Made by a program: the position numbers and the translations under genes | The notes under the pieces: generated by a model | The model's database searches: none | Seen by the model: only the letters and a program-made list of their open reading frames with translations | What the model was told of the DNA's origin: nothing | Part shown: one piece after another, positions 8,407 to 18,103 of the stretch | Position numbering within the stretch: the stretch's first letter is position 1 | Layout of the letters: the number at the start of each line of letters is the position of its first letter | Origin: Acidimicrobiales bacterium | GTDB taxonomy: Bacteria; Actinomycetota; Acidimicrobiia; Acidimicrobiales; JAHEJN01 | Assembly: GCA_024638845.1 (NCBI GenBank) | Contig: JAHEJN010000018.1 | Location: 1-49,407, forward strand | Direction: 5' to 3' | Length of the DNA: 49,407 bases

Positions 8407-9387
8407 ATGAAGATGGCTCTGCGGATCGCACTGGCGATCGCGCTGCTCGTCGCGCTCCCGATCTTCACACCCGACTTCGACCGCTCCGAGCTGCTCCCCG
8501 ACTGGAACTCCTCCACGCCGTTGTGGCTCGCCGCCGCGGTCGTCCTGATGCTCGGGTCGTTCTGGTTCGCCACCCTGCGGTGGCATCGGGTGCTCTTCGC
8601 CTTCGACGTCACCTCGGCGCGCCACCGGCTGTTCTCCCACTTCATGGCCGGCCAGTTCGCCTCGAACTTCATGCCCAGCTCCATCGGCGGCGACGTATTG
8701 CGGGTGAACCGCCTCCGGCGTGACTCGGGCAATGCGCCCGGTGCCTTCGCCTCGGTGGTGTTCGAACGGCTGAGCGGGTGGATCGTCCTACCCGTGCTCA
8801 CCTTCATCGGTCTCCTGATCAATCCCGGCCTGCGCGATCGCGGTGCCGCCACCAGCGTGGCCGTGGTGATGGCGTCGATCACCCTGTTCGGGCTGGTCGC
8901 CATCCTGGTCGTCGTCAGCAACCCGCGTCTCGGTCGACTGCTCGAGTCGCGCGAGGGATGGACTCGATACGCGCAAGCCCTGCATCTCGGTGCCGACAAG
9001 TTCCGAGAGCACCCTCGCGAGATCGTGAACGTCCTCGCGGCCGCGTTCGCCTATCAGCTGGTCGTGCTCACCGCCGCGGCCTGCGCGGCCGAGGCCATGG
9101 GTATCGACCAGATCGGCTTCACGGCGATCCTGGCCTTCCTGCCCGTGACCCTCATCGCCCAGTTCCTGTCGCCTTTCGGCGGCTTCGGACTCCGCGAGGC
9201 ATCGCTGGCGCTGTTCCTCGGCAGCCTCGGGGTGGCCGAGGAACGGGCGATCGCCCTCGGTCTGCTGTTGTACTTCCTCACGCTGGTCGCGAGCCTCATC
9301 GGCTTTCCCGCCCTCGTCCTGGGCGCAGCCAGGGGCGGCAAGCTCATCGACGAGGACGAGCTCGTCGGGAATCCCCTCGAGACATGA
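8407..9387 (+). CDS. Lysylphosphatidylglycerol-synthase-type flippase-like membrane protein
   Basis: Polytopic membrane protein of about 326 residues with about seven to eight hydrophobic segments. It resembles the lysylphosphatidylglycerol synthase transmembrane/YbhN-like family: HFMAGQFASNFMPSSIGGDVLRVNRL in the first half and LIAQFLSPFGGFGLREASL in the second are the usual conserved loops. Such proteins are thought to move lipids across the membrane. The ATG at 8407 is used; the GTG at 8389 is an alternative and neither has a strong ribosome site. The stop overlaps the start of the PAP2 gene (ATGA), so the two are translated together, followed by dxs. The 221-bp gap upstream (8168-8388) shows no gene. 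Confidence 0.82.
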   Translation: MKMALRIALAIALLVALPIFTPDFDRSELLPDWNSSTPLWLAAAVVLMLGSFWFATLRWHRVLFAFDVTSARHRLFSHFMAGQFASNFMPSSIGGDVLRVNRLRRDSGNAPGAFASVVFERLSGWIVLPVLTFIGLLINPGLRDRGAATSVAVVMASITLFGLVAILVVVSNPRLGRLLESREGWTRYAQALHLGADKFREHPREIVNVLAAAFAYQLVVLTAAACAAEAMGIDQIGFTAILAFLPVTLIAQFLSPFGGFGLREASLALFLGSLGVAEERAIALGLLLYFLTLVASLIGFPALVLGAARGGKLIDEDELVGNPLET

Positions 9388-10193
9388 GATTCACCGCGGC
9401 CCCCTCCGACACGTCGCCGGTGACGACGCGACGGCTGGTGTGGTGGCACGAGGTCGCGATGATCGTGTCCTTCTACGTCGTCTACACGTTCATCCGCAAT
9501 CAGTTCGGCTCGGCCGCCGTCGATCCCGAGACGGCTCTCGACAACGCCGTGCTCATGATCGACATCGAGAAGGCCACCGGTCTGTACAAGGAGGCGCAGA
9601 TCCAGAGCTGGGTCATCGACTGGACGGCGTTCATCCAGTTCTGGAACCTGTTCTACGGCACCTTCCACTTCGCGGTCACCGGCGGCGTGCTCGTCTACCT
9701 GTACCGCAGACAACCCGGCCCCTACCGTTTCTGGCGCACCGCCGGGCTCGCCACCACCGGGCTGGCCCTCATCGGTTTCGCGCTCTTCCCGCTGATGCCA
9801 CCGCGGTTGCTCGGCGACTGTGGCGAGTTCGGCGCCTGCATGGCCGACAGCCTCTACGTCGACACGGTGGCCGACATCGGCGGTCTGTGGTCGTTCGACT
9901 CGGGCACCGCCCAGAAGCTCTCGAACCAGTATGCGGCGATGCCCAGCCTGCATTTCGCGTGGGCGATGTGGAGCACCCTTGCCGTCTACCCGTTCCTCAG
10001 ACACCGATGGGCTCGTTTCGCCATGCTGAGCTATCCCGTGCTGACCGTGTACGCCATCATCGTCACCGCCAATCACTACTGGATCGACGCGGTCGGCGGT
10101 GCAATCGTGCTGGCGGCCGGCATCGGGTGGGCCCATCTCGTGCACCATTCGAGTGAACGAGTCGCAGACGAAACCACTACGGTGAACCCGTGA
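9384..10193 (+). CDS. PAP2-family lipid phosphatase/phosphotransferase
   Basis: Integral membrane protein of 269 residues with about six membrane spans. The PAP2 signatures are AAMPSLHFAWAMW (PSxH) and, about 45 residues later, ANHYWIDAVGG with the third-motif His and Asp. The N-terminal layout resembles the inositol phosphotransferase (Aur1/Ipt1-like) branch, so it could move a polar head group between lipids rather than only hydrolyse phosphate. It starts inside the stop codon of the flippase-like gene and its own stop overlaps the start of dxs, giving a tightly coupled three-gene unit linking lipid handling and isoprenoid synthesis. Confidence 0.82.
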   Translation: MRFTAAPSDTSPVTTRRLVWWHEVAMIVSFYVVYTFIRNQFGSAAVDPETALDNAVLMIDIEKATGLYKEAQIQSWVIDWTAFIQFWNLFYGTFHFAVTGGVLVYLYRRQPGPYRFWRTAGLATTGLALIGFALFPLMPPRLLGDCGEFGACMADSLYVDTVADIGGLWSFDSGTAQKLSNQYAAMPSLHFAWAMWSTLAVYPFLRHRWARFAMLSYPVLTVYAIIVTANHYWIDAVGGAIVLAAGIGWAHLVHHSSERVADETTTVNP

Positions 10194-12013
10194 TGCTGGA
10201 GCAGATAAACCAGCCGGCCGATCTTCTCCAACTCGACACGGCGGAGCTCGAGGAGCTGGCCGCAGAGATCCGTGAGTTCATCGTCACCTCGGTCGAGGCC
10301 ATCGGCAGCGGTCATCTCGGGTCGAATCTCGGCGTGGTCGAGCTCACCCTGGCGCTGCATCGGGTCTTCCGTTCGCCCGACGACATCCTGCTGTGGGACA
10401 CCGGCCACCAGGCCTACGTGCACAAGATCCTCACCGGCCGCCGCGACGACTTCGCCCACCTCCGCCAAGCAGGGGGCCTGTCGGGCTACCCGAGTCGCGA
10501 CGAGTCGCCCCACGACTGGATCGAGAACAGCCACGCGTCGACCGTGTTGTCCTACGCCCACGGCCTGGCGACGGCCCAGGAGTCCGAGCACGGCGACGGC
10601 CGCAGGGTGGTTGCCGTCATCGGCGACGGGTCGATGACCGGCGGCATGGCCTTCGAGGGGCTCAACAACCTCGGCCATTCGGGCCGCAGGGTCACCATCA
10701 TCCTCAATGACAACGGTCGGTCCTATGCGCCCACCGTGTCCAAGCTGAGCGACAGCCTCGCCAAGTTGCGGGTGAATCCCCGTTTCCGACGCCAGCAGAG
10801 CCGTCTCGAGCGTCTCGTTGCCGATCTGCCCGTCGTCGGCAAGGAGGCCACCCGCACCATCGATGCCGCCAAGGCCGCTATTCGCGAGATGTGGGAGCCC
10901 ACCTCGTTCTTCGAGAACCTCGGCGTCCGCTACACCGGCCCCTTCGACGGCCACGACATCGCCGGGCTCGAGAAGGCACTGGCCAATGCGGCCGAGCTGA
11001 GCGGTCCGGTGGTCGTGCACGTGCTCACCGAGAAGGGACGCGGTCACGAGCCCGCGCTGGCCGACTCGGTCAAGAAGATGCACGACATCGGCTCGGTCAA
11101 GGCCGGCAGCTACACGTCGGCCTTCACCGAGGCGCTGGTCAAAGAGGCCGAGAACCGCCCCGAAGTCGTGGCGATCACCGCGGCGATGCCCGACTCCACC
11201 GGCCTGATGCCGTTCAACGAGCAGTTCCCCGACCGCTGCTTCGACGTCGGCATCGCCGAGCAGCATGCAGTCACCGCGGCCGCGGGTATGGCCATGGGCG
11301 GGCTGCGCCCGGTGTTCGCGGTGTACGCGACCTTCCTCACTCGTGCCATCGACCAGGTGAACCTCGACGTAGGGCTGCACCGCCAACCGGTGGTTTTCTG
11401 TCTCGATCGCGCCGGCATCACCGGCGACGACGGACCCTCCCACCACGGCATCCTCGACATGGTGCTGCTCACGAAGGTCCCGGGACTCACCCTGTTCGCT
11501 CCCAGCTCCTACCAGGAGCTGCAACAGATGCTCGGCGACGCGCTCGACATCACTGACGGGCCATCGGCCATCCGGTGGCCCAAGACGGCGGCCCCGTCGG
11601 TGCCCGACTCCGAGGTCGGCCGCGGCCTCGACGCCCGCCTCGTCCGCTCGGGCGAAGAGGTGTGCATCCTCTCGGTCGGCAAGATGCTCGCCGCGGCCCA
11701 AGAGGCTGCGGACCGACTCGAAGCCGCCGGCACGACCGTCACCGTCTGGGACGTCCGCGTCGTTCCCCTCGACGAAGCCATGCTCGCCGACGCAGCCCGC
11801 CATCGCGTCGTGGTCACCGTCGAAGACGGTCTCCGCCACGGTGGCGTGGGTTCGATGATCGCCGACCGCCTGGCCGACCGCGCCGAGCAGCCGTCGGTTC
11901 GGGTGATGGGAGTGCCCACCGAGTACATCCCCCACGGGAAGCCCGACGCCATCCTGGCCGCGCTCGGTCTCGACGCAGCCGGCATCGAAGCCGAGGTCCT
12001 CGCTCACCGCTGA
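10193..12013 (+). CDS. dxs: 1-deoxy-D-xylulose-5-phosphate synthase
   Basis: Thiamine-diphosphate enzyme that joins pyruvate and glyceraldehyde-3-phosphate in the first step of the MEP isoprenoid pathway. 606 residues, at the short end for the family. Clear motifs are GSGHLGSNLGVVELT, LLWDTGHQAYVHK, GLSGYPSRDESPHDW, the ThDP/Mg motif GDGSMTGGMAFEGLNN with NDN downstream, and the transketolase pyrimidine and C-terminal domains. The ATG at 10193 shares a base with the PAP2 stop (TGATG); a GTG directly before it is equally possible. The gene ends 9 bp before a convergent GNAT gene. Confidence 0.96.
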   Translation: MLEQINQPADLLQLDTAELEELAAEIREFIVTSVEAIGSGHLGSNLGVVELTLALHRVFRSPDDILLWDTGHQAYVHKILTGRRDDFAHLRQAGGLSGYPSRDESPHDWIENSHASTVLSYAHGLATAQESEHGDGRRVVAVIGDGSMTGGMAFEGLNNLGHSGRRVTIILNDNGRSYAPTVSKLSDSLAKLRVNPRFRRQQSRLERLVADLPVVGKEATRTIDAAKAAIREMWEPTSFFENLGVRYTGPFDGHDIAGLEKALANAAELSGPVVVHVLTEKGRGHEPALADSVKKMHDIGSVKAGSYTSAFTEALVKEAENRPEVVAITAAMPDSTGLMPFNEQFPDRCFDVGIAEQHAVTAAAGMAMGGLRPVFAVYATFLTRAIDQVNLDVGLHRQPVVFCLDRAGITGDDGPSHHGILDMVLLTKVPGLTLFAPSSYQELQQMLGDALDITDGPSAIRWPKTAAPSVPDSEVGRGLDARLVRSGEEVCILSVGKMLAAAQEAADRLEAAGTTVTVWDVRVVPLDEAMLADAARHRVVVTVEDGLRHGGVGSMIADRLADRAEQPSVRVMGVPTEYIPHGKPDAILAALGLDAAGIEAEVLAHR

Positions 12014-12628: not shown

Positions 12629-13421
12629 GGCCCGAGTCTTCCACTGTGGGCTGCGGGCGGTAAGGCGGTAGAGACCGGGCGCGGTCGGTGACCGGCGTCG
12701 GGGTCCGGTCGGCGGCGGCCTCGGGTGTGGGCGTCGGCCGGACATCGGGAGCCGGGCTGCGCTCGGTTGCGGGCGCCGGCGTGGGCGTCGGGGCCGGAGC
12801 TGGCGTCGGTTCGGGTCGGAGCGGCGCTCCGTCGGATCGCGGCGGCTCGGCATCGGCTCCCGGCGTGGGTTCGGGGGCGGGTCGGGCAGTCGGGGTCGCG
12901 ATCGGTTCGGGGGCGGGTCGGGCGGTCGGGGTCGCGATCGGTTCGGGTGACTCGTCACGTGGGGTCGGGCGATCGGTCACCCGATCGGTCAGGGCGTCGA
13001 GTCGCATGCGGAGACCGGGCGAGTCACGGTCGCCGAGCGCGTCGGTGGCCTCATCGATCAGCTCGAAGATGGTCTGTTGGTCACCCCCGCGCGCCACCAG
13101 CGACTCGGCCTCCTCGATGCGGTGCTCGGCGACCACATCGTCGTCGAGAATCGAGACGAGCGGCTCGAGGAGCTTCTTCACGGAGTACAGAGCGTCGCCG
13201 GGCACCGCCGAATCGGAGGCAATCGCCGCAGTCGGGACGAGCACCCCTGCGCCGATCAGCAATCCGGCCAGCCACCTCCGCCAAGACCGCCAGCGCGAGG
13301 GACGGGGCACCGCCGCGGTCGAACCGAGGGCGTCGGCGATGGCACGGAAGTGCGCTTCGACGGTCTCCTCGGACATCTCCGTTCGAATCGCTTCGAGCTC
13401 GGGAAACGCGACAGGGCTCAT
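12606..13421 (-). CDS. DUF5667-like membrane protein, probable partner of the ECF sigma factor
   Basis: 271 residues. The N-terminal 40 are cytoplasmic and helical (EEVTVEAHF-like), one membrane segment lies at about 48-68 (WLAGLLIGAGVLVPTAAIA), then comes a DUF5667-type segment (SAVPGDALYSVKKLLEPL) and a long Pro/Thr/Ala/Arg-rich tail outside. The tail has a 12-residue tandem repeat (EPIATPTARPAP, twice). The ATG overlaps the sigma-factor stop (ATGA). That coupling and the topology suggest an anti-sigma or signal-sensing role, but no zinc-binding anti-sigma motif is visible, so this is inference. Confidence 0.7.
   Translation of the reverse strand: MSPVAFPELEAIRTEMSEETVEAHFRAIADALGSTAAVPRPSRWRSWRRWLAGLLIGAGVLVPTAAIASDSAVPGDALYSVKKLLEPLVSILDDDVVAEHRIEEAESLVARGGDQQTIFELIDEATDALGDRDSPGLRMRLDALTDRVTDRPTPRDESPEPIATPTARPAPEPIATPTARPAPEPTPGADAEPPRSDGAPLRPEPTPAPAPTPTPAPATERSPAPDVRPTPTPEAAADRTPTPVTDRARSLPPYRPQPTVEDSGREQDRRD
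12868..12939. repeat. Two 36-bp tandem units in the Pro-rich tail
   Basis: Units 12868-12903 and 12904-12939 differ at one visible base; a partial third unit follows. They encode the EPIATPTARPAP duplication on the minus strand. Confidence 0.85.
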
Positions 13422-17629: not shown

Positions 17630-18103
17630 ATGACCAACTTCCATGATCTGGAGATGACCTCGATCACGGGCGAGCAGATCGCGTTCGACCAGTTCCGTGA
17701 CCAGGTCTGCCTCGTCGTCAACGTCGCCAGCGCCTGAGGCCTCACCCCTCAGTACGCAGGTCTGCGTGCGATTCACAACGAGATCGACGGTTTCCAGGTT
17801 CTGGGGTTTCCCTGCAACCAGTTCGGTGCCCAGGAACCGGGCAGCGACGACGAGATCCTCGAGTTCGTCACCACCAAGTTCGACGTGAACTTCCCGATGT
17901 TCTCCAAGATCGAGGTGAACGGCGACGGTGCCGCCGAGCTGTACAAGTGGCTCAAGGCCGAACAACCCGGCGAGGCCGATGGGCCCGACATCACCTGGAA
18001 CTTCGAGAAGTTCCTCGTCGACGGTGGCGGCAACGCCGCCGCCCGCTTCCCGCCCCAGACCACGCCCGAACAAGTCGCCGAGGCGCTCACCCAATACCTC
18101 TGA
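17630..18103 (+). CDS. Glutathione peroxidase, predicted selenoprotein (in-frame TGA = Sec36)
   Basis: Read through one internal TGA (17735-17737) this is a complete 157-residue peroxidase that reduces hydrogen or lipid peroxides. The TGA is codon 36, exactly the peroxidatic site: NVASA-U-GLTPQYAGL. Downstream motifs are intact: GFPCNQFGAQEPG (Gln68), FPMFSKIEVNG and TWNFEKFLVD (Trp123, Asn124), completing the tetrad Sec/Gln/Trp/Asn. The resolving cysteine of thioredoxin-dependent relatives (FCTTxxxVTFPMF region) is Val80 here; the only cysteines are 27 and 62. A SECIS-like hairpin follows at 17752-17769. The ATG at 17622 is rejected since it stops at once. A pseudogene with one nonsense change is possible but unlikely, as everything else is conserved. 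Confidence 0.9.
17735..17737 (+). other. In-frame TGA, predicted selenocysteine codon
   Basis: Codon 36 of the peroxidase, aligned with the catalytic Cys/Sec of the family. The reading frame is open for 35 codons before it and 121 sense codons after it. Confidence 0.88.
17752..17769 (+). promoter_or_regulatory. Bacterial SECIS-like hairpin
   Basis: Six-base-pair stem GTACGC/GCGTGC (17752-17757 with 17764-17769, one G-U pair) closed by the loop AGGTCT (17758-17763). Twenty bases separate the TGA from the loop. Bacterial SECIS elements have a short stem with a GGU-containing loop within about 16-37 nt of the UGA to bind SelB; the loop and its closing GC pairs match those known for E. coli fdhF as I recall them. 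Confidence 0.82.

Follow-up and report, generated by a model that had tools for sequence, protein, structure and literature searches.

The locus studied here raises the question whether a glutathione peroxidase (GPx) gene with a TGA codon at its catalytic position is a damaged gene or a selenoprotein gene, in which UGA is read as selenocysteine (Sec). The gene resides in the window, that is, the whole analyzed stretch of 49,407 nt from an Acidimicrobiales bacterium (contig JAHEJN010000018.1).

Coding Frame and the In-Frame TGA

The initial annotation described one continuous frame of 158 codons interrupted only by a TGA at the peroxidatic codon, and both the coordinates and the single internal TGA proved to be exact (Table 1). 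The interrupting codon falls within NVASA-U-GLTPQY, the frame is terminated by another TGA (18101–18103), and the product comprises 157 residues. The Pfam profile GSHPx (PF00255) matches across the internal TGA with E = 4.6e-40 (136 bits, with the gathering score of 27), and Cys homologues have TGC or TGT in this place. The expectation that automatic calling would split or discard the gene holds as well: the list of standard-code open reading frames contains it only as fragments, e.g., 17885–18103 (72 aa). The upstream neighbor encodes a UvrD-type helicase with an HRDC domain, and the downstream one, on the opposite strand, encodes RecG; neither hints at a functional link to GPx.

Table 1. Positions of the GPx gene features in the window.
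Feature	Position	Strand	Remark
Predicted Sec-GPx coding frame, ATG to TGA stop	17630..18103	+	157 aa, predicted Sec at residue 36
UGA predicted to be read as selenocysteine, residue 36 (peroxidatic position)	17735..17737	+	TGA in 25 Sec forms; TGC/TGT in Cys homologues
SECIS-like hairpin	17752..17769	+	stem 17752–17758/17763–17769, apical loop GGUC 17759–17762
Catalytic Gln68 (aligned with GPX4 Gln81)	17831..17833	+	invariant in alignment A1
Val80, position of the resolving Cys in Cys-GPx (yeast HYR1 Cys82)	17867..17869	+	
Catalytic Trp123-Asn124 (aligned with GPX4 Trp136-Asn137)	17996..18001	+	invariant in alignment A1

Distribution of the TGA Form

Two hundred and ninety-six genomes of the class were searched for GPx, and 127 were positive, 17 of them with the TGA form. 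These 17 are also the best-scoring GPx in the class, with exactly one TGA each, and every Cys form scores lower. The TGA always occupies the same codon, no other stop is present in frame, and all 17 genomes have both selA and tRNA-Sec(UCA). In the same order, selA accompanies the Sec form of GPx in 15 out of 15 genomes and the Cys form in 16 out of 59 (Fisher p = 1.6e-7, which overstates independence, as genomes in the class are related by kinship).

Scanning of a wider set of genome contigs yielded eight more TGA-GPx genes, for a total of 25 Sec forms. They come from MAGs labeled, as given, Acidimicrobiaceae/Acidimicrobiales, Gammaproteobacteria/Pseudomonadales, and Deltaproteobacteria, and selA is present in all of these genomes. 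The alignment with relatives, suggested in the initial annotation as a check, shows either TGA or TGC/TGT at the peroxidatic codon, with neither further stops nor frameshifts in the TGA forms; its argument that a random nonsense change would not be expected here is strengthened by the same TGA in 25 genomes with the remaining frame open.

One more GPx gene of the class (L043, 1032–1466; genome G078, contig C88) contains two TGAs and apparent frameshifts. This gene, the only case of frame damage in the class search, is of the Cys form and probably represents an assembly error or a pseudogene; it was rejected as a second selenoprotein type.

SECIS-Like Hairpin

A candidate SECIS, not remarked upon in the initial annotation, begins 14 nt past the UGA. 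The hairpin GUACGCA-GGUC-UGCGUGC has a 7-bp stem and, as the bacterial SECIS criterion requires, a G in the small apical loop (GGUC). Since folding energy in the single sequence gives no significant signal (z = –0.8 and –0.7), we relied on comparative tests. No SECIS family match was obtained in the Rfam scan of the window and the hairpin region.

The codons CAG TAC GCA GGT CTG are identical in all 17 TGA-GPx genes of the class, and in the rest of these genes the shares of GCA among Ala codons and of GGT among Gly codons are 8% and 18%, respectively. Moreover, A43, G44, and L45, encoded by the invariant GCA-GGT-CTG, are the only conserved four- or sixfold degenerate columns with a single codon, the other conserved residues differing at synonymous sites. 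Pairing is retained in 97.6% of stem cells over the 25 Sec genes; wobble pairs are seen in several genes and a compensatory G-C to A-U change, in one, although one double-sided compensatory change is a weak signal, matched by 28 out of 500 shuffles. When a stem of no fewer than 7 bp and a G in the first two loop positions are required, 22 out of 25 Sec genes vs. one out of 49 Cys genes qualify; in the three remaining Sec genes, the stem contains an A-C mismatch.

Exactly the same core, GCAGGUCUGC, is present in the Escherichia coli fdhF SECIS, whose 41-nt hairpin segment was confirmed in 5368 out of 5426 E. coli genomes; the core is read there in the same frame (Ala-Gly-Leu) and also soon follows the UGA. 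The fdhF loop starts 18 nt past the UGA, one codon closer than the loop studied here (21 nt), and the fdhF stem has a bulged U, in contrast to our seven consecutive pairs. The exact core GCAGGTCTGC was ruled out as a stand-alone finder of further selenoproteins, as it occurs 12 times in the same genome vs. 14 times for the reversed-pattern control.

Selenocysteine Machinery and Other Predicted Selenoproteins

SelA, SelB, SelD, and tRNA-Sec, whose presence elsewhere in the genome had been predicted from the window, were all found in the same genome (3.7 Mb, 220 contigs, 96.9% complete, 2.5% estimated contamination). The tRNA-Sec gene (contig C83, 18085–18176) scores 66.1 bits with the gathering score of 47, and is called by ARAGORN as tRNA-SeC with anticodon tca. 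Genes selA (C83, 32419–33657) and selB (C83, 33666–35384) are adjacent, with 8 nt between them; both products score above their NCBIfam cut-offs, and SelB contains the GTPase, beta-barrel, and C-terminal winged-helix domains. Gene selD, on contig C80, scores 364.6 bits (cut-off 125) and has one in-frame TGA, in HGAGUACK. An in-frame TGA, in CNRTUHAPS, is also present in a homologue of the formate dehydrogenase alpha subunit FdhA on contig C211 (643 bits, slightly below the 666-bit cut-off). Counting the TGA codons in GPx, selD, and the FdhA homologue, we predict at least three selenoproteins in this genome.

These sel genes are located on other contigs of the assembly, from which alone their origin from the same organism is not proven. 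In three single-contig genomes (G002, G157, and G027), TGA-GPx, selA, and tRNA-Sec are found together on one contig, and hence the link between TGA-GPx and the machinery is independent of metagenome binning.

Being itself a predicted selenoprotein gene, selD (L010, 18460–19404) has a strong hairpin, UGGCGCAG-GUU-CUGCGCCA, after its TGA. The FdhA homologue (L065) is matched by the profile in two pieces (8501–10369 and 12845–12994), with the N-terminal 50 profile positions in a separate downstream open reading frame, which is an unusual split arrangement.

Catalytic Residues and Proposed Mechanism

Residues 36, 68, 123, and 124 (Sec/Cys, Gln, Trp, and Asn, respectively) are invariant in 17 sequences of alignment A1. 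For GPX4 we assume the numbering and catalytic role of Gln81 and Trp136-Asn137, and in yeast HYR1 we take Cys36 to be the peroxidatic and Cys82 the resolving residue. The AlphaFold model of the studied protein (pLDDT 88) has the thioredoxin-like GPx fold, with TM of 0.95 to the Schistosoma mansoni GPx (2wgr) and 0.93 to human GPX4 (2obi).

At the position of HYR1 Cys82, each of the 25 Sec forms has V, A, or I, and 47 out of 49 bacterial Cys forms have Cys, the two exceptions being L075 and L082. With Val80 here, the protein lacks the resolving Cys that defines 2-Cys thioredoxin-dependent GPx, a feature that had also escaped comment. Because this residue is absent from every Sec form, we infer a one-selenol cycle similar to that of animal GPX4.

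During translation, SelB with GTP and Sec-tRNA-Sec(UCA) would recognize the hairpin after the UGA, and the complex would place selenocysteine at residue 36. The selenol would reduce H2O2 or organic hydroperoxides, aided by Gln68, Trp123, and Asn124. Without a resolving cysteine, the enzyme would probably depend, like animal GPX4, on an external thiol for reduction of the oxidized selenium, and not on an internal disulfide and thioredoxin.

On sequence grounds, we are nearly certain that the gene encodes a monomeric-type Sec-GPx, with UGA decoded as Sec via SelB and the hairpin; the protein would act as a one-selenol peroxidase. We consider a functional selenoprotein gene very probable, with predicted Sec insertion and peroxidase activity.

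It is conceivable, if somewhat doubtful, that such a selenoprotein is reduced in vivo by thioredoxin or another protein thiol, and not by a small thiol. The MshC-like and GshB-like genes give no clear indication of the reductant, being ambiguous by cut-offs: the MshC-like ligase (L071, contig C151, 17074–18156) scores 421 out of 485 bits, that is, below the MshC cut-off and above the CysS one, and the GshB-like protein (L072, contig C192, 26483–27463) passes one glutathione synthetase subfamily cut-off (432.6 vs. 408), being below both glutathione synthetase equivalog models. On the other hand, without the resolving Cys no intramolecular disulfide would form as it does in thioredoxin-dependent GPx.

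The replacement of the resolving Cys only in the Sec clade also argues against the view that the gene is an ordinary Cys-GPx in which a nonsense mutation or a sequencing error produced the TGA, that is, a pseudogene or an artefact. TGA is just one substitution from TGC or TGT, and the TGA form is missing from 110 out of 127 GPx-positive genomes of the class. However, the hairpin is conserved, the Sec machinery is present, and the only frame-damaged GPx in the class search, that of G078, is a Cys form. As the TGA is found at the same codon in 25 separate genomes, several of them single-contig (G157, G002, and G027), and the frames are otherwise open, chance or sequencing error can be dismissed, and we regard this explanation as highly improbable. 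A genome-wide code change, with UGA read as another amino acid (e.g., Trp), would also account for a TGA that is in frame and read through, but is of negligible probability given that the same GPx gene terminates at TGA 18101, as do the frames of several relatives at TGA, that the internal UGA is at the catalytic Sec/Cys position, and that tRNA-Sec(UCA), SelA, SelB, and SelD are present.

Comparison With Known Glutathione Peroxidases

The Sec-GPx reading of the initial annotation stands, given the machinery, the relatives, and the hairpin, with the qualification that bacterial Sec-GPx are already known. They have been predicted in Treponema denticola (PMC1794560), five sequences were reported from the Sargasso Sea (PMC1088965) and 40, from the GOS metagenomes (PMC2398784), and a 2026 review lists them as GPX-like, with the UxxT motif (PMC13188914). 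The gene in the window shares with them the family (COG0386, PF00255), UGA at the peroxidatic codon, UxxT, and a bacterial SECIS within the coding sequence, and differs in the host, here from Actinomycetota (class Acidimicrobiia by the labels of close relatives). Some marine metagenomic Sec-GPx, set beside our gene by description and not by sequence, may belong to the same clade. We found no earlier report of Sec-GPx in this class or of a selenoprotein in Ilumatobacter in openly licensed literature, which is weak evidence of absence. The window GPx is a new branch of the already known bacterial Sec-GPx, spanning one class of Actinomycetota and scattered proteobacteria.

Animal GPX4 and the S. 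mansoni GPx, the best structural matches of the model, also use Sec as the peroxidatic residue (replaced by Cys in most crystal structures), have the same Gln-Trp-Asn, and carry no Cys where HYR1 has its resolving Cys82. Unlike them, the window GPx has a bacterial in-frame SECIS and, past the Sec motif, no one-residue insertion. Bacterial Cys-GPx and yeast HYR1 are of the same family and fold, but have Cys in place of Sec, retain the resolving Cys, and lack the hairpin (the single bacterial Cys gene out of 49 excepted).

According to a GPx review, bacterial GPx have both peroxidatic and resolving cysteines (PMC8614756); this description is contradicted by the Sec clade, which lacks the resolving Cys. 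For animals, the same review describes Sec gain accompanied by loss of the resolving Cys (PMC8614756), and the clade provides a bacterial test of whether Sec gain makes this Cys dispensable. Its hairpins also constitute a defined SECIS set for Actinomycetota, and the recoded gene, split or dropped by standard gene calling, is common to at least 25 species-level genomes.

Phylogeny and Evolution of the Sec Clade

In the maximum-likelihood tree, the 25 Sec forms and two Cys forms, L082 and L075, constitute one group of 27 rows with support 100/92, inside which the inner branches are partly weak. The eukaryotic Sec-GPx are placed elsewhere in the tree, although their joint grouping with the clade is not rejected by the AU test (p = 0.16); a bacterial gain of Sec with loss of the resolving Cys, independent of animals, is favored by the tree and not proven at this value. 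As the clade mixes phyla (by the MAG labels as given), it suggests horizontal transfer of Sec-GPx across phyla.

One may tentatively imagine a broader scenario, in which bacteria would have repeated the GPX4 transition independently and obtained a one-selenol peroxidase using a small thiol (e.g., mycothiol), the gene would then have been exchanged between Actinomycetota and Proteobacteria along with a SECIS that hardly changed, and a return to Cys, with decay of the hairpin, would have occurred in at least one lineage (L075); we consider this combination unlikely.

The Cys form L082 (1501–1968), which has no resolving Cys and is sister to the Sec clade, could have preceded the gain of Sec as an intermediate or resulted from an old reversion. 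The Cys form L075 (1501–1968), from a gammaproteobacterial MAG that keeps selA, is nested in the Sec clade and has a broken remnant of the hairpin, CAATACGCAGGTCTTTGTAC; given this position and the decayed hairpin, it is likely a Sec-to-Cys reversion.
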